Source: a virus. Taken from it: 25,242 bases of DNA. Position numbers and translations under genes: made by a program. The stretch is from the IMG/VR virus record IMGVR_UViG_3300006736_000084, positions 1-25,242 of that record. One strand, written 5' to 3'. The notes under the pieces are model-generated. The model was not told the origin of the DNA. It saw only the letters and a list, made by a program, of their open reading frames with translations, and did not search any database. This document shows, piece after piece, positions 3,001 through 24,455 of this stretch (positions are counted from its first letter, which is position 1; each line of letters starts with the position of its first letter).

Positions 3001-4729
3001 CCTTTCTTTTAGAGAGAATCATTCCAATATCTTTCTCGATATTACCAATACCTGCAACTTCAATCGCTTCCTCTAATGTAGCAATCTGCCTATGGAGTTC
3101 AAAGCTATTTTTGCCAAGTCCTGCACCCTGAACAGATCCGCTAGAGATGCCGCCGTGTGCCTCAATCTTTAACTGCTGAAGCTTTCTTACATTTGGATCC
3201 GTGTACATGTGAGAAACATAATCTTGTAGGCTTTCAATCTTAAAGCCAGCAAGCTGCTCTTGTGCGAGGATATCGTCGAATTCTCCTCTAACCCAGTTGG
3301 CATGGTCCATGAGTTTCTGTGGCAATTGTCCGCCATCATGAAGGGCGGATATAATCATTCCATCATCATTCTTTTTAACAAAGCTAAGTTCTGTTCCTTC
3401 AAGGATTCCAGATAGAACTTCTCTCTCATCTTTTGTAGTATCAGACAAGCGCTCCTCAAGCCTTGCTTGGTAATCTGTAGTCTCTTTCTGTATGGCATAC
3501 TTGGTTCTGTAATAACTCTTAGTTAAGTCCTTAGCTACTCCAGATGTTGGATCAAACAATCTTGATGTATGTACAGAGTACGCGCTAGTTGCAAGCTTAT
3601 ATCCTGCTGCGCCACCTAATGCTGTCCCGACCAATTGCCCGGTTGTACCAAACATTACTCCACCTAGGCCACCAGCGACAGCACCACCGACCAATCCTCC
3701 TGCTAACTTTCCTGGACCGGAAGTGAAGCCTCTATCTGCATGAGCAAAACTAGCAGTCTCATCGAACATATCGGCAGCAGTTCTGCTCCAATCTGGAATA
3801 TGATCCAGTTTCTCTGATAACAATTTTCCAGCAGTCCTTGCTGCGCCGCCTGGTGCTGCTGCGATAGATGCTAGCTTGCCCCTGTTTTGGATTAGTTCGT
3901 TAACTAGAGAATCATAGTTATCAACCATGTACGTTCCCACCTCATCATGTAGGTGGCGAAGCGCACTATGCTCCAGGTGTAGTAATTCATCTACTCCTGC
4001 TGCTGCACGTCTTGCGTCTTGCAGGCCTATCTTTTCTGCAATTTTCGGTCTTAAATGGCTTGCTGCTAGATTGTAGATTTGAGCGCCGTGCTTATTAAGA
4101 GTTAGGTTTGTCCCCTCGTTTGTGATTGCCTTACCGCCAAGCTTGATCGTTTGCGCCAAGCTTGTCTTCTTTACTCCAACCTTGATGCCTGCACCAATAC
4201 CAAACGTCAGGTACGTCAATGGATCTAATGCAACATCTGCTAAGAATCTTGTGGCCCAGTTGGATTCAGTCATCAGCCCACCAGTGCCGAAGGTATGCCT
4301 CTTCCTCCATGAATCCATAAACGCTTGCGTAGAGAATCCAAGCTTGACTGGCCCGACATTAAAGGCGTTTCCGTCTTTCTGATTTGCTCCCAGATTGGCC
4401 ATCGTTAATGCGTGTGTTGCATACAAAGGCGTAGAGAGGATATCGATAGCTGGCTGGAACCAGGTTCCAAACATCTCTTCAGAAGGCTGCTCGAATCCCA
4501 TCATGTGATCCCAGTATGTCTTTTTGGGATCGCCAGCTTTAGCCCGCTCTACCTCCTCCAAGCTAATTAGACCACGGGATGCAGCCTGATCTAAATCATG
4601 GGATGTCTTCGCTAGCTTTTCTTCCTGCCAGTTATCTTCATCGCTATTAGCAGGGTTAGCTGCACGGTGCATCTGTTTCTGCTTGAGTTCTTCAAGCAGT
4701 TGATAATATCTTTCGTTATCTAATGGCAT
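1..4729 (-). CDS. Giant internal virion / polyvalent protein, 3' end outside window
   Basis: This is an open frame of 1576 codons from an ATG at 4729 with no stop before the window edge, so the C-terminus is missing. The start follows the upstream stop by 10 nt. The protein is largely hydrophilic and helical. A small-residue/glycine-rich hydrophobic stretch lies at about residues 335-380 (for example LAGGLVGGAVAGGLGG), preceded by another hydrophobic patch near residues 175-195. A charged coiled-coil-like segment rich in Lys/Glu lies near residues 1000-1150. No catalytic motif is recognised in the visible part. Near the left edge the segment YKVIAERLLPHLDNIAVRI resembles sequence I associate with the approach to enzymatic modules in large phage polyvalent proteins; this is only an impression. 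Very long proteins placed after the tail genes of short-tailed phages are usually packaged and ejected with DNA, and membrane-active glycine-rich segments fit that. Arg and Lys codon use changes near 1150. Coding status is certain; the role is inferred. Confidence 0.85.
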   Translation of the reverse strand, partial: MPLDNERYYQLLEELKQKQMHRAANPANSDEDNWQEEKLAKTSHDLDQAASRGLISLEEVERAKAGDPKKTYWDHMMGFEQPSEEMFGTWFQPAIDILSTPLYATHALTMANLGANQKDGNAFNVGPVKLGFSTQAFMDSWRKRHTFGTGGLMTESNWATRFLADVALDPLTYLTFGIGAGIKVGVKKTSLAQTIKLGGKAITNEGTNLTLNKHGAQIYNLAASHLRPKIAEKIGLQDARRAAAGVDELLHLEHSALRHLHDEVGTYMVDNYDSLVNELIQNRGKLASIAAAPGGAARTAGKLLSEKLDHIPDWSRTAADMFDETASFAHADRGFTSGPGKLAGGLVGGAVAGGLGGVMFGTTGQLVGTALGGAAGYKLATSAYSVHTSRLFDPTSGVAKDLTKSYYRTKYAIQKETTDYQARLEERLSDTTKDEREVLSGILEGTELSFVKKNDDGMIISALHDGGQLPQKLMDHANWVRGEFDDILAQEQLAGFKIESLQDYVSHMYTDPNVRKLQQLKIEAHGGISSGSVQGAGLGKNSFELHRQIATLEEAIEVAGIGNIEKDIGMILSKRKAASIKMRHMESFYDVMKSTAGMPAVMTYNAIKDGKLAALSLKRWLRTMDPKDAKAYLFDQYYSLSDTMAEKLGFDLGNTSWKPYLAGRIKTEFEFGTGRRKQPFDGISPDDSIVALEGKSRSNLSLVRFLSRSLEERLAPSAVWDTGANPNAKSYKQVGRTIKTRIGVEEGEDAKSVDVVTLMERIYTGDGDVLRAVREMLGKSDLNMQQFSSVMKEMDKWSRKNFEAPLLQMFPDLLYKAEASMRTLSRFSWANGTKLKKKIVDDMAELEKKLSAAVDNKSFSPQLPEEVITRARWWRMRMNDYSDYFAPKAGQYDELDNLRKRLGIDYNHIQNISRALVGEGDISKLSQRDLGRLNDFVGGHIEDHVSGQKLRNRKVLWGENLAVVNFNSRRAPDFGDIDEIMELRRIEEEGLVTNSTRDIKIKRTKMLADSKQRQVDFLKKNLEQITASRLSKLSKRGADDQIKVVGTIQEKIKRIEKEITDLRENASKMADEPQAPVSTGAERQTYIGREEFMRSNSDVLSTKEQSMFGKRFGFKRKRSSVSSLSGKAGKKGLASLRRKTSQKMKAHSRSIEKLTKELLDTEEEIAKIQTEVAGKGKAPEPQAMGDWNKIRRVQDEATFPYKTDDFKEFERPSTEEIPHHFDIDRYTKAVDERLSGHRIPDSLDDMLIRESVFVERELNTAEDWADSIFDFLEKEGVPSEAITNLRHQMNEWSRNPARDPEADEGQKIIDALHEYWSKRVKDRVIMDAGPVAAIASQYWRSGFMGGWNSKKGDIYGRAPHFEWEDADSYKGQMWDVQDMAHAINDAIESGRRAETRRGTFGEAFPEVAGVGFLQQTDDIHKQAYETAYKIKHGEYSPKIKEVEADERLGKRIDHYGYQQRDPVSGQAIPPELYISHAENVGISGLNDLPVKEQMKGFEDGLRKAIGPEDLRGPKPPDVSEAKWWRDSPEVNLVDQGKAAARWLIDESTDESYKVIAERLLPHLDNIAVRILNHGDR

Positions 4730-10491: not shown

Positions 10492-10624
10492 TGATCTTCT
10501 CCTTCTTCTTGTATGGTGGTAACTTCATCTTCTTTAAAGTAATGTCTTGCTTATGCTTCGGCAGCTTAGATCCTTTCTTCCTTAAAAGAACAGTCTCTTT
10601 TTCCCAGTCCTTCTTTAGTTTCAT
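10481..10624 (-). CDS. Small lysine-rich protein, 47 aa
   Basis: An ORF of 48 codons starts with an ATG at 10624 that overlaps the stop of the gp10-like gene as ATGA, and ends in TAA at 10483-10481. It fills what would otherwise be a 129-bp gap in a tightly packed operon. The product starts MKLKKDWEKETVLLRKKGSK and ends KKKEKIIVP. About one third of its residues are Lys or Arg. There is no membrane segment. The downstream gene's ribosome site is embedded in its 3' end, an arrangement that suggests coupled translation. A DNA- or RNA-contacting virion peptide or an assembly chaperone are possible, but no function is shown by the sequence. Confidence 0.7.
   Translation of the reverse strand: MKLKKDWEKETVLLRKKGSKLPKHKQDITLKKMKLPPYKKKEKIIVP
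10489..10504 (-). promoter_or_regulatory. Strong Shine-Dalgarno deciding a TTG start
   Basis: AAGGAG at 10504-10499, spacer AAGATCA, then TTG at 10491-10489. This matches an ideal ribosome binding site and lies inside the preceding small gene, so translation of the 244-aa protein starts on a rare TTG codon. Confidence 0.75.
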
Positions 10625-12855
10625 TGTCCCTTCGCAACCGATGGTGTGTGCGCATACGAAAGCCCGACAGCTTTAACCTTAACTGGATATCCAGACTCGA
10701 ATGTAACATCTATAGTATGGCTAAAACCAATAACTGGCTTCTCGATCTCTGGGACCATCCAAAAATCTCCTGGTGCCAACCAATATGGTTTAGCATCAAA
10801 CAACGGCCCATCCCGAAAAACTGGGTCGCCCCAAAACCCAAATGGTTTCTGATTGAAAGCCCTTCCAATTCTGTTCTTTGATGGGTACGCCTTTCCTTTC
10901 CCTGTGGCGACGTTAAAGATTTCTTCACCTTCTATCTTAATGTCAATGTCGGTAAAGCTAGATGGCTCCATTAAGAACCTAATACCAGAAAGAGTCCTAG
11001 AGAAACTTTGAGATTCTGTAGTCAGCCCAGCGGTTCTAATTCTTGCGGTAGGAAAAGTATTACCCCTAAACAATACATAAATCTTATCAGATACACCAAG
11101 AATTTCTTCATTGTACTGACAAATATCATTAACGCTTTCTTCTACAACGTACCAGTTGTCGGTAATGAGGTTATACATAATAACGACGTTTGGACGCTCG
11201 CTAATGTACTCAGATCTAATAGATAGGTAGTAGTAATCTCCAATTACCTTTGCTGAAGTATAGCGACCCATATCTTCCAGGTAGACATCCCTAAGCCAAT
11301 ACGGCTCGCTAACTTTCTTATGGCTAACGCCATCATAAAAACCAAATCCATTTGACCACAGTCCAAAAATAATTCCGTCTCCAGCATCCACAAAGGTTGA
11401 ACCATGCCTAGATCCGTTCTTGGTATCCTGCTCCAATAGAGCAGCGTACTCTGTCCCTGTGCTATCGGCAACCATATAGTAAACTTCTGTTGATGTTTCT
11501 CCAATAATGAACAGCCTATCACCAGCAGGAACCAGCCCGGTGACATTTGAATATGGGTTAATCACCTGTAAATCTCTAAACTGACCAAAGAACCCACTAT
11601 CAGAGTAATAGACAGAGTTTCTGTTAAGGCTAACTAGCCACAACCTGTTTGAAAAAGAACATCCAATCTCAGAACTTGGTGGAGGTCCAACTGTAAGATC
11701 CATAAGAGGACCTTGAGCAACTACATCATCCCCATCAATTGCAGTGTACCTAGTTCCTGTAGAGTTAGATTGAGCCCAATCCATAAATATAGCATTCGGG
11801 TCTCCAGGTGTTGGATCTTGTGAATTTAAATTAATAGACCTTCCAACATAAACAGTTGTTATATGCTCATCAATTGTTGGGACATCCCATTGGACTAAAG
11901 GCCAAACAGTTGTCCATGTTGGAGTGACTGTGGCGCGATCCCCATCATCGTCATCGTCATCGTCCTCTAGAGTGTAGGATCTAACAGAATTTTTACTAGG
12001 ATTAGCGTGTCTCAAACTTGCAGCAGAAGCTTTACCTTTATTCCCGAAATAATCAACAAATTGAACGCACCAAACAGCAATATGCGAAATATCGCCATCA
12101 CCTGTACTCTTCTCTTCATCGAATCCATTTGTTGGATCTACATTAAGTAACCAATACCTTGTAGAATTTAGGTAAACATTCCCATCATCTGATCCATCTC
12201 CAACTATTTGAGTGGTATCAACTGGATTAAAACTAGTGGTCCATGGATTTGCATGTTGCTTGTGATGAACCCCAGCATAGGCTCCGTAGTATGTAATCTC
12301 TGCACCAGAGTTAACAACCGGCCTAACTGGAATAACATGTGGTGGATTAGGAATCTCTCTGACTCCTACCGGTACGACACCCTGTACGCCATCCCAGACA
12401 TATGGTGGATCACCATGATTCAGAATGACTAGCTTCTGCTCATGTATAAATAGGTAGGGCCTTCTAACAACATCGTCTGTTCCGCCCCTACCTAGTCCTT
12501 CCATAGTATGGATTAACCTAGCTCCATTACCCTCAACTGTATAGACTTTATCGTCAACTGTGTAAACCACATGTTCGATATCAAAGTAATCTGTAAACTT
12601 AATTACTCTTGTGTGCTCGCCAGTAGGTTGTTCAGATGAAGTATAATCTGAGAAGTAATCAGAAGAACCTTGCTGCTGTACCGTATTTGTTTCACCTTCT
12701 CTAAACAACCAATCCTTTCCTGGATAGTTCTGTAGATACTCACCGTTCTCTGTTGGATAGAAGTTGACAGTTCTCCTATCCAGGGCAAGTGTCTTCGTCT
12801 GTTCTGAATCCTTCAGACCAGCAAAGAAAAATACAGGTAGTTCAGTAACAGCCAT
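10621..12855 (-). CDS. P22 gp10-like packaged-DNA stabilisation / tail hub protein, 744 aa
   Basis: I place the start at the ATG at 12855, coupled as TAATG to the stop of the previous gene; a TTG 18 nt upstream is the only longer alternative. The N-terminal motif NFYPTE (about residues 31-36), the segment SNRLWLVSLNRNSVYYSDSG and the following GDRLFIIGETSTEVYYM are characteristic of the gp10-type propeller proteins that close the tail channel and keep DNA in the capsid of P22-like phages. P22 gp10 is about 470 residues, so this protein is considerably longer. Part of the extra length lies between about residues 165 and 380 and carries a run of seven Asp (residues 298-304). The neighbour order connector, then gp10-like, then fibres fits a neck/hub role. 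Confidence 0.75.
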   Translation of the reverse strand: MAVTELPVFFFAGLKDSEQTKTLALDRRTVNFYPTENGEYLQNYPGKDWLFREGETNTVQQQGSSDYFSDYTSSEQPTGEHTRVIKFTDYFDIEHVVYTVDDKVYTVEGNGARLIHTMEGLGRGGTDDVVRRPYLFIHEQKLVILNHGDPPYVWDGVQGVVPVGVREIPNPPHVIPVRPVVNSGAEITYYGAYAGVHHKQHANPWTTSFNPVDTTQIVGDGSDDGNVYLNSTRYWLLNVDPTNGFDEEKSTGDGDISHIAVWCVQFVDYFGNKGKASAASLRHANPSKNSVRSYTLEDDDDDDDGDRATVTPTWTTVWPLVQWDVPTIDEHITTVYVGRSINLNSQDPTPGDPNAIFMDWAQSNSTGTRYTAIDGDDVVAQGPLMDLTVGPPPSSEIGCSFSNRLWLVSLNRNSVYYSDSGFFGQFRDLQVINPYSNVTGLVPAGDRLFIIGETSTEVYYMVADSTGTEYAALLEQDTKNGSRHGSTFVDAGDGIIFGLWSNGFGFYDGVSHKKVSEPYWLRDVYLEDMGRYTSAKVIGDYYYLSIRSEYISERPNVVIMYNLITDNWYVVEESVNDICQYNEEILGVSDKIYVLFRGNTFPTARIRTAGLTTESQSFSRTLSGIRFLMEPSSFTDIDIKIEGEEIFNVATGKGKAYPSKNRIGRAFNQKPFGFWGDPVFRDGPLFDAKPYWLAPGDFWMVPEIEKPVIGFSHTIDVTFESGYPVKVKAVGLSYAHTPSVAKGQ
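11944..11964 (-). repeat. Asp-codon microsatellite in the gp10-like gene
   Basis: Seven consecutive Asp codons, mostly alternating GAC and GAT on the coding strand, form a short trinucleotide repeat. The resulting acidic loop could bind cations; length variation by slippage would remain in frame. Confidence 0.85.
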
Positions 12856-14279
12856 TATGATTTCCAGTGCCAATACTTAGTGGGATCATAATCGTCAACA
12901 TTTTGAATAACTTTATAGTCTCTATGTCTTCCAACACCAGGGTCCTCTGATGCCGCTGTTCTATCTTGCTTCAGCAAATACATTAACTGAGACCTAAACT
13001 GAACAATAGCGTCTCTAAACGAAGAAGTATCCCTGTTCTGCAACTCAACAAACTGGTGAACGCCAAGCCTAAGTAATTCTAAAACTTGGTTTGTTCTTCC
13101 AAGATCAACGTAAGATTGACCATCTGGCCTTAGTCCCCAATCATTGAGCCTATAAACATCAAATGAATAGAAGTCGTCTGGTGGTGGGAGAAGATCAACT
13201 GTAGTCCATGGGCCATCGTAATACATTTCCCTGGTCCTTAGGTTTACAGAGCTTAGCTGATCTGTTACAAAATCTCCACTATTCGTAGGATCTTTATCTC
13301 CGCCATTACCTAGGCCCCACATATAGTCGACCTGCTGATCTAGTCCGTAAACGCCAATCCTATCTTTATATTCTGGACCGTTAACTGCGAACATTGGAAC
13401 TCTGGATCTCTCTGGGTTCTTCTCAGACCTCCAAAGTCTTAGCCCATAAGTGTGTTCTCCTATATTTGCATTTCCATACTCCCAATCTACCCATGTTCCA
13501 TCTGATGGTGCAAAGTAGGTGGTTGTTGGTCCAGGAGCACTAATAAGTCCAGACTCTTGATCAACGTATGTCCAAAACAAATAGTAAGATCCAGCATCCA
13601 TCCCACCACTAGTCTTATCAGCAAGCGCTGAGGCTGCTTTTACTTTTGGTGCAAACTTTGGACTTGGCAAGGATTTGTTATCATCTACCCTCCAAGAAAC
13701 TGGCGCGCCACTTTCTGACCAGTAGCGCGTGGTCATAAAATCTCTAATGTAATCATCGTTAAGGCTGGAGGCTTTCTTAAGTAAATCAACCTCTACAGTC
13801 TTAATAGACGAAGTCCTAAAAGAATAATCTTGTCTAGTAAACTCTACCTGCTGGCTCGTAAAACCAACGTGCATAGGCTTATCAAGGTAAAGTCTATTTG
13901 CATTTGGAGATGTTAGTGGGGCTGCGCCAGAGTTAACTGTTTTATAAACTCTATTATCAAGCAGGAGTACCCTGCCTGTCATCTTCCAACTCCAAACGTC
14001 TGTTGGAATAGTAACTCCTTCCCCACCAATATTTCCACCACCGTCCAATGTAATAAAGTTGTTACCTCTAACACCAGTCCACTTATATGAATCGCTAAGC
14101 GTAGATGGTGAAAGCGTTCCTCTTCCTTCCCAGATATAATTCCAAGACCACTTTTCTCCTCGAATAAGTTTATATATTTCTTCAAACCACTGGTACATGA
14201 TGTCTTCAGACATGTTCTGGCCAGTGTTAACCATCAAAAGATCAACGATCTCTTGAATTCTCATGGTTTGATTTGCCAT
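12855..14279 (-). CDS. Head-tail connector / adaptor candidate, 474 aa
   Basis: The protein lies between the capsid accessory genes and the gp10-like protein, the normal place for the ring protein joining portal to tail. The first 45 residues (RIQEIVDLLMVNTGQNMSED and onward) and the last 90 (VLELLRLGVHQFVELQNRD and onward) look helical, as in adaptor proteins. They flank a beta-rich middle with a segment typical of sugar- or protein-binding beta domains (FWTYVDQESGLISAPGP, about residues 235-251). The ATG at 14279 has AGGAG eight bases upstream, within the structured GC-rich leader. It is longer than P22 gp4 or T7 gp11, so it may be a connector with an inserted domain. No signature residue proves the assignment. 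Confidence 0.55.
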   Translation of the reverse strand: MANQTMRIQEIVDLLMVNTGQNMSEDIMYQWFEEIYKLIRGEKWSWNYIWEGRGTLSPSTLSDSYKWTGVRGNNFITLDGGGNIGGEGVTIPTDVWSWKMTGRVLLLDNRVYKTVNSGAAPLTSPNANRLYLDKPMHVGFTSQQVEFTRQDYSFRTSSIKTVEVDLLKKASSLNDDYIRDFMTTRYWSESGAPVSWRVDDNKSLPSPKFAPKVKAASALADKTSGGMDAGSYYLFWTYVDQESGLISAPGPTTTYFAPSDGTWVDWEYGNANIGEHTYGLRLWRSEKNPERSRVPMFAVNGPEYKDRIGVYGLDQQVDYMWGLGNGGDKDPTNSGDFVTDQLSSVNLRTREMYYDGPWTTVDLLPPPDDFYSFDVYRLNDWGLRPDGQSYVDLGRTNQVLELLRLGVHQFVELQNRDTSSFRDAIVQFRSQLMYLLKQDRTAASEDPGVGRHRDYKVIQNVDDYDPTKYWHWKS

Positions 14280-14280
14280 C

Positions 14281-14450
14281 GGTGGTGCTCCTGGCTGGGC
14301 CTGTGCTGGCCCCTGGCTTGGCTGTGGTAGGCTGGCTCTACTCGAGGGGAGAGAGGCCCCCCAGAGGCTCTCGAGCGCCTCTGGGGGGTGGGTGACCGGG
14401 GCTTGGGGTAGAGGTCCAAGCCGGGAAGAGGTCAGTCACCCTAACTACGT
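14281..14450 (-). other. GC-rich, highly structured intergenic region between capsid and tail genes
   Basis: By hand count 111 of the 160 bases 14281-14440 are G or C (69%), against clearly AT-leaning genes on both sides. It contains a perfect 12-bp hairpin (arms 14357-14368 and 14377-14388, loop of 8) and a second structure with a 7-bp outer stem (14390-14396 with 14435-14441) and a 7-bp inner stem (14400-14406 with 14416-14422). No T tract follows. Next on the transcript comes a 48-nt stretch (14328-14281) with no U and more C than G. The last part supplies the ribosome site of the connector gene. It is probably a transcript-processing, stabilising or attenuating element. Confidence 0.8.
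14357..14388 (-). terminator. 12-bp perfect GC hairpin without T tract (possible attenuator or mRNA-stabilising element)
   Basis: The arms CCCCCCAGAGGC and GCCTCTGGGGGG pair completely around an 8-base loop. The following minus-strand bases are CCTCTCTCCCC, so it is not a classical intrinsic terminator. Its place directly after the capsid genes could protect the capsid message from 3' exonucleases or reduce transcription into the tail genes. Confidence 0.5.
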
Positions 14451-15161
14451 CTAGGTGCTTCCGTATCGCTTGTATCGGATAGGCAATGTCAATTCAGCAT
14501 CGACAAAACTACTAGCAACTGCACCACGAGCAAAACCGATGCTAGCACCGCCAAGTGAAACCTCACTAGATTGTGCTATCAGCGCAGCCTTTACGTGTGT
14601 CACAGTAGTTGCAGCAGACAACAAAGTGGGGTCAGTCGCAAGAGCAGCTGCGGTAGTCACCAATGGAGTTCCATCAGCAATAGCAGACGCCACAACAGCA
14701 TTAAGAGACATGCGTCCACGACGAACAAGCCAGATTGCATCACCAGCAGTCAGAGTTTGAACAACAGAGTGCGCTCCACTAGTTGTCCAATCTACAGTTG
14801 TTGAATAGTACAGATCAAGGAAAATACCAGCAATGGTATCAACCGGCGCGATAGCTCCAGCTAAAGCTCCAGTATAGAGCAATGCCTTTCCGTTCTGTGA
14901 AGAGGTGGTACCAGATGCCAAAGTAACATCAGCAGCACCAACAGGGTGAACGTAAAGAGCAAGCTCCATATAATACTGCGCGCCGGTAGCCGCAACAGTA
15001 TAAATCATCTGCCTGCTCATGCCTTCATGAAGGAAATCAGATGAGGCTTGGTTTTCGCCGTGAAGCGCCAAATCCTCAGCCGTAACCATAACATTCGGCG
15101 GAAGGAACTTACTATGGGACTGGAGGTCAGTCCATCCCATGAAATCAGTAAAACTAGCCAT
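14451..15161 (-). CDS. Probable capsid accessory / decoration protein, 236 aa
   Basis: No named family is recognised. The protein is rich in Ala, Thr, Ser and Val, with a region around residues 50-145 that alternates in a beta-like way (QYYMELALYVHPVG) and low charge, as common for head accessory proteins. It starts with an ATG at 15161, preceded by GGAG at somewhat long spacing, 17 nt after the previous stop. It uses mainly CGN arginine codons, as the capsid gene does, suggesting abundant expression. It ends with two nearby in-frame stops (TAG ACG TAG). A decoration, head-fibre or head-closure role is plausible from position; nothing in the sequence decides between them. Confidence 0.7.
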   Translation of the reverse strand: MASFTDFMGWTDLQSHSKFLPPNVMVTAEDLALHGENQASSDFLHEGMSRQMIYTVAATGAQYYMELALYVHPVGAADVTLASGTTSSQNGKALLYTGALAGAIAPVDTIAGIFLDLYYSTTVDWTTSGAHSVVQTLTAGDAIWLVRRGRMSLNAVVASAIADGTPLVTTAAALATDPTLLSAATTVTHVKAALIAQSSEVSLGGASIGFARGAVASSFVDAELTLPIRYKRYGST

Positions 15162-15178: not shown

Positions 15179-15616
15179 TTAGCTAATTGTTCGATATGAA
15201 ATAGAAATATCACAGGTCTTAGCAGAAGCGTCAGCCTTATTAGCGCAACGCGCCGCAATCCTAACATTTGCTGCTACTTTCTTGCGAATTGGAATCACAA
15301 GACCCATATGGTTACTTGCGTGTCCAGCAGTAAACCTTACCATAGCAACGACAGTTTCAGATGCTGCCGCTCCAGTCGCCAAGGCAACCTGGAATGAATC
15401 AGCAGCAGAAACAGCCTCAATCACAATTGAATCAATATAGATTTCAGATGTGATTGTGCTAGCAGGAACAACTTCCGCATAGGAAGCAACTACCCATGCA
15501 TCTGCATGACCAGTTACTGTGACCGCATTTGCTAGTGTAGGGTAAACACTCAATGTACCTGAAAGAGAATCCTCCAGGTTATCGAATGCTACCTTGCTTG
15601 ATAGTGCATTAAACAT
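15179..15616 (-). CDS. Probable beta-sandwich capsid accessory protein, 145 aa
   Basis: I choose the ATG at 15616, one base after the capsid stop (TAATATG) and with GGAG upstream, instead of a longer in-frame extension that would run 153 nt back into the capsid gene and encode a sequence unlike a structural protein (with several Cys and Arg). The 145-residue product alternates hydrophobic and small residues (SEIYIDSIVIEAVSAADSF) and ends with strands rich in Arg and Cys (NVRIAARCANKADASAKTC), a pattern I associate with small phage surface proteins. Its place just after the major capsid gene suggests it binds the capsid shell. Confidence 0.7.
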   Translation of the reverse strand: MFNALSSKVAFDNLEDSLSGTLSVYPTLANAVTVTGHADAWVVASYAEVVPASTITSEIYIDSIVIEAVSAADSFQVALATGAAASETVVAMVRFTAGHASNHMGLVIPIRKKVAANVRIAARCANKADASAKTCDISISYRTIS

Positions 15617-15617
15617 A

Positions 15618-16727
15618 TTACCACGTCTCCCACATTGCGCCACCGGAAGAATCAGAAACGCCATGATCTGACATTCGGAACATTCCGATGTTGAATGAAT
15701 CAACGATCCACTGAGTCTGCGCAAGCTGGCGATACGGAGTACGAGGAGCAAGAGCGCGACTTCGAACATTCGGGTTAACGATCATAAACAGACCGCCATT
15801 CAGATCCAGAATGTTATCAGTTGCAACTTCCTCAATGTCACCGTCCAACTTGACGGTATCTTGAAGACCGGTACGTTCGGCTTCAAACTTCTCGTCAATA
15901 TGCAAGCAGTACACTTCATCAGCAGGACAGTTTGGATCCCAACTAACCCAGTGACCATCAAACATGAAAGTACGAACACCATATTGGGCATCCTGACGAT
16001 CAGTAATGACGTGGTACGGGGTGCTCATCTCAAGCATGGCTCGACGAATGTTACCAAAAGTAGCCTTGGTAGTGACAAGGTCACTTGGAACAAGGGTACC
16101 AATAGTGCATGCATCAATAAGCTGAAGCAGAGCAAGAACGCCAGCGGGCAGGTTAGTACCAGCAGAAATCGTTCCAAAGTTAGAAGTCAACTGAACATAT
16201 TGATTACGCCACCAAGTCTTTGTAGACTTCGCAACACCACCAACAGTCTGAGTCTGTGCTGCAGGTGCAGCGGTTTCAATAATAGTCCCAAGTCCATCTG
16301 GCTGAGAACCACCGAGTCCGTTGAAGATCGCGCTACTCAAAGCACGCTTCTGAGACACAGCAGCTTCCATCGTCTTGAAGTCAACCAAGTCGAACAGAGC
16401 TTGAGCGTTACCCTCATTCTCCCAAAGATCGAAAACATCAAATCCAAGAGGAGTTGCAATGTATCGATTGGTCCAATACGAAAGAGCGGCGCTGGAAGAG
16501 GATGCATCCGGTAGGACATCTCCTCGAGCCATCCACTTTCCCATGGTTGGGGGACCAAGGTAAAGGGGAACTTCCTTAACATCGTAACAATTAACAACTT
16601 GTGCAGTTTCCACAAATCGCCGGTAGAGGTACGACTTCTTGAGTTCCTGTGCTACGAGCTTCTTTGACCGATCTTCGATTGTACGAATAAGGTCAAACTG
16701 CTCGCTGTAACTAGTGCGAACACCCAT
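15618..16727 (-). CDS. Major capsid protein (HK97-fold candidate), 369 aa
   Basis: The gene follows a scaffold-like gene and precedes small accessory proteins, the standard position of the shell protein. The length fits an HK97-fold capsid protein with separate scaffold. Features consistent with that fold are a charged N-terminal helix (about residues 14-34), a Gly/Ala/Thr-rich middle, and a segment TFGNIRRAMLEMSTPYHVIT followed by FDGHWVSWDPNCP in the C-terminal half, similar to other phage shell proteins of this length. The ribosome site is good (AGGAG, ATG at 16727). Every Arg codon I read is CGN, while most neighbouring tail genes use AGA/AGG, which fits very high expression. Confidence 0.75.
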   Translation of the reverse strand: MGVRTSYSEQFDLIRTIEDRSKKLVAQELKKSYLYRRFVETAQVVNCYDVKEVPLYLGPPTMGKWMARGDVLPDASSSSAALSYWTNRYIATPLGFDVFDLWENEGNAQALFDLVDFKTMEAAVSQKRALSSAIFNGLGGSQPDGLGTIIETAAPAAQTQTVGGVAKSTKTWWRNQYVQLTSNFGTISAGTNLPAGVLALLQLIDACTIGTLVPSDLVTTKATFGNIRRAMLEMSTPYHVITDRQDAQYGVRTFMFDGHWVSWDPNCPADEVYCLHIDEKFEAERTGLQDTVKLDGDIEEVATDNILDLNGGLFMIVNPNVRSRALAPRTPYRQLAQTQWIVDSFNIGMFRMSDHGVSDSSGGAMWETW

Positions 16728-23125: not shown

Positions 23126-23715
23126 TATGCAACCATGAGAAACTTATTGGGAACAATAAGAGTATACGTGAATGTTTCATGCCCCAAAGCCCTTTGACAC
23201 TCGCAAAGCTCCATGAACAAAGCAAAGTCTTTAGCGCTCTGGAATACCTGGCATCCAGCACTCCACCTACCTACGTTTTCTGATGCACCGTGAGAAGTCG
23301 CCCTGTGGATATTGATCCCAAAATATCCTTCTGTCTCGTTCTCCCCATAATCTAGAATGGAGTCTTTGGTACGGTCTCTCCATACATTGACTATCCCTTC
23401 CCTTTGACAAAGCGCGGGATACTCCCCACGGTGCATATCGATTTTATAAACTCCCCTATACTGTCCTGGAACTAGAATAGCTGTTCCATCTACGCTAATA
23501 GGGTTGTTTAAATAATAATTACCAGGATCAGTGGTTGCTGGCCAGCTATGTGTTATCCACTGTCCATCTTCTTTAAACACACAGCAGATCATATCATCGA
23601 AAGCATCTGGCTGTGGATCTTTATTCCTAACACCAATAATGTTAAGATTGTAGTCTCCTTCAGTAAAGACCTTGTGGCCCAACGATGAGACTGCTTGTAG
23701 AATGAAAGGAAGCAT
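23125..23715 (-). CDS. YkuD / L,D-transpeptidase-like cell-wall enzyme, candidate endolysin, 196 aa
   Basis: The protein carries the sequence GINIHRAT near residues 133-140 and GRWSAGCQVF near residues 149-158. This H-x(n)-S-x-G-C arrangement (His 137, Ser 152, Cys 155) matches the catalytic cysteine motif of the YkuD / L,D-transpeptidase fold, which acts on peptidoglycan cross-links. The upstream strands (YNLNIIGVRN, DDMICCVFKEDG) fit the beta core. No signal peptide is present, as is usual for endolysins released through a holin. The ATG at 23715 overlaps the upstream stop as TAATG. It may be a lysis enzyme or a virion cell-wall enzyme. Confidence 0.6.
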   Translation of the reverse strand: MLPFILQAVSSLGHKVFTEGDYNLNIIGVRNKDPQPDAFDDMICCVFKEDGQWITHSWPATTDPGNYYLNNPISVDGTAILVPGQYRGVYKIDMHRGEYPALCQREGIVNVWRDRTKDSILDYGENETEGYFGINIHRATSHGASENVGRWSAGCQVFQSAKDFALFMELCECQRALGHETFTYTLIVPNKFLMVA

Positions 23716-24074
23716 TATGATAACGCCAATCTAATATCAAGAGCGGAGCCAGGAGCAACAGTGGTTGTGACTCCATTTGCTACGGCTTGAATTGAAAGTC
23801 CAGATGTGAATGCCCAACCAGCACCGAAATCGAAGAAACTAGAAGTAGAAGCAGTAAGTGGAAAAACAAGGTCCGGTATGTCGGCGGAAGTATCAACTTG
23901 TTTAGCATCGTAAATTTTAATATATACTATAGACCCATTCGGGTTATTCACGTAAATACTTTGTAGAACGCCAGCAGTTCCAATAACATCTGTTTGCACA
24001 GTTGCAGATAGTGCAGTATCAACTACTAGTTTAGTAGCAAACGGGATCGTAAGACTTGTGGTTGTCGCTGCCAT
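23715..24074 (-). CDS. Small beta-rich virion protein, paralogue 2, 119 aa
   Basis: A Ser/Thr/Val-rich protein without charged helices. The segment NNPNGSIVYIKIYDAKQVDT and the following DIPDLVFPLTAS match the next upstream gene. This looks like a beta sandwich of the type found in small phage virion proteins. The start (ATG 24074) follows the previous stop by 6 nt with AGG upstream. It probably arose by duplication from its neighbour. Role unknown. Confidence 0.75.
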   Translation of the reverse strand: MAATTTSLTIPFATKLVVDTALSATVQTDVIGTAGVLQSIYVNNPNGSIVYIKIYDAKQVDTSADIPDLVFPLTASTSSFFDFGAGWAFTSGLSIQAVANGVTTTVAPGSALDIRLALS

Positions 24075-24080
24075 GTTAAC

Positions 24081-24455
24081 CTATGAGGTTAGGAATCTTA
24101 AAGTTACGCCAGAAAGGACATCATCACTTGTTTCACCGGCACCAGTGACAACTGCGAAGCTAATATCAGCAAATGTGAAGCCCTTGTGCATGGTAATAGA
24201 GCGCTTAGTAGACGCATTTATCTTTAAACAAATATCTGGGACTGAACCAGAGGCTCCACCAAAGGTTGGTCCTGTAGCATCCCAGAACTTAACATACACA
24301 GCAGAGGTATTTGTTGTGTTATCCGCCTCTATAATATAGAGGGTGCTGGAAGTTGCTCTAACATCCTTTTGATCAGCATCAATACCGGCATCTTCCTTAA
24401 TGGTAATCTTACCACCAAGGGTTGTCGGTAGAGTTCTTGTTACAACATCTGCCAT
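24081..24455 (-). CDS. Small beta-rich virion protein, paralogue 1, 124 aa
   Basis: First gene after the hairpin/T tract. Its centre, TSAVYVKFWDATGPTFGG followed by SVPDICLKINAST, aligns with the protein encoded next in the operon. The ribosome site AGGTG lies immediately downstream of the terminator's T tract, so read-through or coupling from the upstream gene would control its expression. Probably a structural protein of beta-sandwich type; no named family recognised. Confidence 0.75.
   Translation of the reverse strand: MADVVTRTLPTTLGGKITIKEDAGIDADQKDVRATSSTLYIIEADNTTNTSAVYVKFWDATGPTFGGASGSVPDICLKINASTKRSITMHKGFTFADISFAVVTGAGETSDDVLSGVTLRFLTS

Follow-up and report, generated by a model that had tools for sequence, protein, structure and literature searches.

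The stretch of DNA analyzed here (the window, 25,242 nt) comprises positions 1 to 25,242 of IMG/VR record IMGVR_UViG_3300006736_000084 and comes from an uncultivated phage. Its long open reading frames (ORFs) lie on the minus strand, and the transcript is read on that strand. The gene for the major capsid protein (369 aa; 15618 to 16727, minus strand) was recognized by its match to phrog_9953, major head protein (E = 9.9e-12), and the protein is ∼49 to 91% identical in the 12 closest relatives. It is followed by a small gene (15179 to 15616, minus strand), whose homologue in L004 starts at the same ATG, and by a gene for a 236-aa protein (14451 to 15161, minus strand). The AlphaFold model of the 236-aa protein (pLDDT 75) had as its leading PDB matches capsid and head-fiber chains of Pam3, phi29 (gp8.5, head fiber base), T1, Sf11, FCWL1, and XM1 (best E = 6e-3). 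These matches are suggestive of a high-copy decoration or cement protein. On the far side of an intergenic gap lie the genes for a 474-aa protein (12855 to 14279, minus strand) and a 750-aa protein (10621 to 12873, minus strand). A fold search with the 474-aa protein returned no confident match, and its model was too weak to name a fold; by its place and its conservation in relatives, it is a putative neck or tail (adaptor-like) protein. The 750-aa protein, conserved beside the 474-aa gene in relatives, is a putative tail nozzle or stabilization protein, a function assigned from position only.

The window's own DNA and protein sequences had no match among annotated phages. PHROGs identified the capsid, portal, and terminase and no other proteins, a search of ten proteins against Pfam put a name to none of them, and Rfam gave no match above the gathering score in the window. 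A scan of genome contigs with an alignment of the capsid protein found no relatives.

A GC-rich, structured gap

The gap between the 236-aa and 474-aa genes (14280 to 14450) is 171 nt long and has a GC content of 67.8%, compared to ∼44% for the contig. No other 170-nt segment of the contig is as rich in GC as the one at 14280 (68.2%); the runner-up elsewhere reaches 61.2%. Read on the minus strand, the gap contains a perfect 12-bp GC-rich stem with an 8-nt loop at 14388 to 14357 (CCCCCCAGAGGC-GCTCGAGA-GCCTCTGGGGGG; −28.7 kcal/mol, z = −4.5), 62 nt from the upstream stop codon and 78 nt from the next start codon. This main hairpin is the top local structure of the window's sense strand. Between it and the stop codon, a two-stem structure with a 9-bp outer and a 7-bp inner stem occupies 14441 to 14390 (−23.6 kcal/mol, z = −3.9). 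On the other side, the leader of the 474-aa gene consists of a T-free, C-rich run of 50 nt (14328 to 14279), the longest of the sense strand, where the next longest is 32 nt; an AGGAG Shine-Dalgarno-like site lies 8 nt before the ATG. The bases immediately after the main stem are CCTCTCTCCCCT, with no T tract. A preliminary description of this DNA had claimed an island of 170 nt and 69% GC, a perfect 12-bp hairpin, a second two-stem structure, a 48-nt U-free, C-rich stretch, and no T tract, and our measurements bear out each of these features with small changes in the numbers.

The 12-bp stem provides the stable GC-rich hairpin expected of an intrinsic terminator. However, the accompanying U run was tested for and is absent (CCUCUCUCCCCU, 3 U in 8, no run), and the window hairpin is therefore not classifiable as an intrinsic terminator. 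We also compared the gap to shuffled sequences. With 10 nt added on either side, it folds with z = −3.07, a value reached by 0 of 200 shuffles, and its best local hairpin was equaled in 5 of 300 shuffles that kept the GC-rich composition. Given its composition, the main hairpin alone is thus only moderately surprising, and the case for it rests on the relatives, where its kept position indicates that the window hairpin is more than chance.

The possibility that the 474-aa ORF extends N-terminally across the gap was rejected. By reading, the frame is open to ∼14438 but offers no ATG, GTG, or TTG. The homologues begin where the annotated ORF does, and ∼51 open codons are likely by chance at such a GC content. 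We note that the sister contig L006 (IMGVR_UViG_3300025082_000191), 99.93% identical to the window over 7.2 kb, ends at 14486, ∼44 nt before the structured island, and that L026 also ends ∼20 to 30 nt past the end of its homologue of the 236-aa gene; strong hairpins may break assemblies at this junction.

Conservation of position and pairing in relatives

We scanned IMG/VR with the flanking proteins and the capsid protein and obtained 14 distinct contigs that span the junction (L007, L008, L009, L011, L012, L021, L022, L024, L025, L027, L028, L029, L068, and L070), giving 15 loci together with the window. A final scan of the collection yielded no new junction-spanning locus and hence no independent prospective test of the rule described below. 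The flanking proteins of the relatives are ∼27 to 63% identical to those of the window. In 14 of 14 relatives, a strong GC-rich hairpin was found directly after the homologous stop codon, such that its position at this junction is conserved in 15 of 15 loci. The stem is mostly 11 to 15 bp long and the loop mostly 4 to 8 nt, and the first stem base lies 6 to 29 nt past the stop codon where measured. From the stem to the next start codon, most relatives have ∼17 to 32 nt, with somewhat more in L008; with 62 and 78 nt on the two sides, the window carries an expanded version of the junction. L008 departs from the simple form: here, the stem forms the base of a three-way junction. Some relatives have a counterpart of the window's two-stem structure ahead of the main hairpin, but it is weak (mean z = −1.6), and the structure is not clearly conserved.

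Compared to shuffles, z averages −5.2 for the hairpins of the 15 loci and is −3.1 or lower in every one. Within each locus, the 3′ ends of all sense ORFs were ranked by their best local structure. The hairpin came first in 11 of the 15 loci and second or third in 3, placing it among the top three in 14; the exception was L008 (rank 4), whose structure is longer than the 46-nt test segment. A scan of the sense strand of six long contigs (26 to 50 kb) identified the hairpin as the strongest 40-nt structure in four and the second strongest in two.

The conserved position was accompanied by extensive sequence turnover. The 5′ arms of different phages share 33% mean identity, which is near chance, yet each pairs fully with its own 3′ arm; paired with the 3′ arm of another phage, they reach 45% on average. 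Within the subgroup of L025, L027, L028, L029, L068, and L070, 10 of 11 stem positions vary yet stay paired, with exchanges that include G-C to T-A and G-C to C-G. Pairing in this subgroup was counted from the loop outward; the automatic alignment gapped the loop and slipped the arms by one. The value of 0.36 for L008 in the pairing count is a register artifact at the stem that closes its three-way junction. Arms and loops are unalignable outside the one subgroup. Stem positions that vary and remain paired indicate that the structure rather than the letters was kept, and we regard this as supporting evidence, short of a formal covariation test and with the register of such short arms uncertain, that the stem has been maintained across relatives. 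Conservation of the stem, on which the preliminary description had made its reading depend, was thus found in every relative, although conservation of the sequence was not.

Other strong structures were noted in these contigs. L025 and L029 each have a very strong long stem at 4228 to 4277 (−31 and −34 kcal/mol, z = −6.5 and −7.4). In both, it precedes the capsid start by the same ∼770 nt and falls inside or near a scaffold-like gene. The core of this stem, CCAGAGGC/GCCTCTGG, recurs as the core of the window hairpin, possibly by coincidence. Additional very strong hairpins lie at reverse-complemented positions 721 and 26941 of the L011 contig (G001, L049 to L051) and at position 3340 of the L021 contig (G003, L052). 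Two of these are at gene ends, and one is followed by a T run (GGCGGGCATTTTTG), which indicates that canonical terminators also occur in the group.

Association of the hairpin with the capsid genes

The gene order in the same six-member subgroup bears on the side of the junction to which the hairpin belongs. Where the contig is long enough, the order is decoration gene, hairpin, two small genes, and the homologue of the 474-aa gene. The hairpin lies 6 to 9 nt past the stop codon of the decoration gene and does not follow the tail gene. Since it stays with the decoration gene despite the two inserted small genes, the gene order argues that the hairpin belongs to the capsid cluster and to its 3′ end. 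In the window, the homologues of the two small genes are far off, at 23715 to 24074 and 24081 to 24455. This pair, near one contig end, is homologous to the pair of L027 and, by arrangement, to those of L028 and L029; judged by these homologies, it has moved within the structural region.

Proposed role of the hairpin

Taken together, these data suggest, with moderate confidence, that the hairpin is a post-capsid 3′-end element that sets the head-to-tail step in expression. In this it would work much as T7 Tphi does, which, like the terminator of phiKMV, is found in the same slot. In the proposed scheme, the late genes would be read as one transcript in the order scaffold, major capsid, small protein, decoration protein, hairpin, and neck/tail genes, and the polymerase would have to cross the hairpin to reach the tail genes. 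In most relatives, the ∼17 to 32 nt before the next start codon offer room for a ribosome-binding site and little space for a promoter. Transcription of the tail genes should therefore cross the hairpin, unless it contains a promoter or a transcript starts within it, and so the hairpin could be at most a partial block. Transcripts that stopped early or were cut further down would be trimmed by 3′-to-5′ exonucleases back to the hairpin. A stable capsid mRNA would remain, the tail part would decay or never be made, and shell proteins would be produced in excess over tail proteins. The hairpin would thereby act on RNA 3′ ends, mRNA stability, and the amounts and ratio of the proteins, and we infer the copy numbers of both flanking products. 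The stem, and not a U tract, is common to all loci, and 3′-end protection therefore fits best. Relatives that carry a U run probably use this hairpin to end part of transcription as well, and in the window, which has no U tract, protection or end-setting would be likelier than termination. A 3′ end that protects the capsid message was one of the roles put forward in the preliminary description; conservation of position and anchoring on the capsid side make it the best reading, and it stands as a prediction from sequence.

A precedent for protection is the hairpin at galE in the Escherichia coli gal operon, which sits immediately before an mRNA end inside the operon, is a barrier to exonucleases, and contributes to a higher abundance of the promoter-proximal genes (PMC11925234). 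It has no terminator function but fixes the mRNA end made by downstream Rho termination or RNase E cutting, and it helps to create polarity (PMC11925234). It differs from the phage hairpin in its 8-bp stem, and the ends come from Rho and RNase E. In E. coli, conserved structures commonly shield parts of operons from decay (PMC5927463).

The strongest alternative is a leaky intrinsic terminator, or attenuator, that halts a constant fraction of polymerases past the capsid genes, such that read-through makes the tail genes; we regard this as possible but rather unlikely as a general account. Its model is T7 Tphi, between genes 10 and 11, which occupies the same capsid/tail slot with a 15-bp stem 7 nt after the capsid stop codon and ∼22 nt before the next start codon. 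Read-through of Tphi is the only route to expression of T7 genes 11 and 12 (PMC5592923). The hairpins described here share this placement between the last head gene and the first neck or tail gene, with the start codon a ribosome-binding site away (∼17 to 32 nt in most relatives and 22 nt in T7, but 78 nt in the window). In phiKMV, an annotated terminator follows the major capsid gene directly, with two tandem hairpin-forming stretches in the gap, and the transcriptome of LUZ100 revealed a strong terminator directly after the major capsid gene (PMC10134795). Some relatives would suit such a mechanism. L022 has TTTTTGG right after the stem and is the only relative with a clear U run; in L011, L024, and L028, five of the 8 nt that follow the stem are T, and the 4 to 6 T counted over L011, L022, L024, L027, and L028 are comparable to the counts for T7 and phiKMV scored alike. 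In these five, plain partial termination is possible.

Several observations argue against this explanation for the group as a whole. No U tract follows the stem in the window, L009, L025, L029, or L070, whereas Tphi ends in the T run GGGGTTTTTTG and the phiKMV terminator has the U run GGGTTTTTG. The scan for terminator-like sequences, which like the one for promoter-like sequences remained at shuffle level, does not list the window site. In addition, the stem begins 6 to 29 nt after the stop codon in most relatives, and at spacings below ∼27 to 30 nt an intrinsic terminator of E. coli is repressed by the ribosome that trails the polymerase (PMC4824070), which argues against efficient termination at 6 to 9 nt under coupled transcription and translation. 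The window differs further from Tphi in the 62 nt that follow its stop codon and from phiKMV in having two more genes between the capsid gene and the hairpin. Finally, Tphi serves a phage-encoded single-subunit polymerase, but no T7-type RNA polymerase scored over the cut-off in the ten records searched, some of them incomplete. The phages of this group therefore likely use the host polymerase. One weak match to a T7-type polymerase fell in a long open frame that does not resemble a polymerase and was discarded.

The nearest annotated capsid relatives, reached only with the capsid protein of a diverged relative, are the Myxococcus phages Mx8 and Mx9, whose major capsid proteins are distant homologues. 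Both have a 15-bp hairpin ending the capsid cluster ∼22 to 31 nt before the next start codon. In these phages, the hairpin follows the gene directly after the capsid gene, and it is not annotated as an element in their records.

The preliminary description had also proposed a rut-like site, at which the U-poor, C-rich stretch would load Rho and limit expression of the tail genes. The 78 nt after the window hairpin are indeed rich in C (C 0.44, G 0.24, T 0.08) and include the longest T-free run of the strand. However, this T-free, C-rich leader is absent from the relatives, where the corresponding composition is C 0.17 to 0.31 with a normal T content (0.19 to 0.33), and most have only the short spacing of ∼17 to 32 nt in which to accommodate such a zone. 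A conserved rut site is thus not supported, and we consider Rho-dependent termination improbable here. Its third suggestion, a recognition site for a phage protein, is disfavored. Together with the wider class of sites for a phage or host protein or for DNA-level packaging, recombination, or replication, we rate it as slightly less probable still than Rho-dependent termination. The near-palindromic DNA in a GC-rich island at a module border would suit such a site, but the arms have essentially no common sequence, a stem pattern search of bacterial genomes placed the window stem core in only 19 contigs, as scattered, chance-like matches, and in each phage the structure is found at a gene 3′ end, the place predicted for an RNA-level role. 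Least probable of all is processing of the late transcript by RNase III at the head/tail border, as occurs in T7 at other junctions: stable double-stranded RNA does lie at the module border, but stems of mostly 11 to 15 bp with tight loops are shorter than typical RNase III sites, whose helix runs for about two turns (at least 20 bp).

A phage requires shell subunits by the hundreds but each tail part in only about a dozen copies, and in many phages a single transcript encodes both. As judged from the sequences compared here, the hairpin most likely represents the head/tail expression boundary of an uncultivated phage family. We also raise a broader and more speculative idea, which we hold only tentatively: mRNA decay may be the main means by which the whole lineage sets the ratio of shell to tail proteins, a hairpin of fixed position and free sequence protecting the capsid message without termination, and the mechanism may drift between protection and termination as U tracts come and go. 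The principle itself is not new, since T7 Tphi has a similar function. A structure held at a fixed place through sequence turnover in 15 diverged phages, mostly without the hallmark of a terminator, nonetheless offers a simple, searchable signature of the head-to-tail switch point. The hairpin would mark the head/tail border in unannotated genomes, and it makes protection versus termination directly testable.
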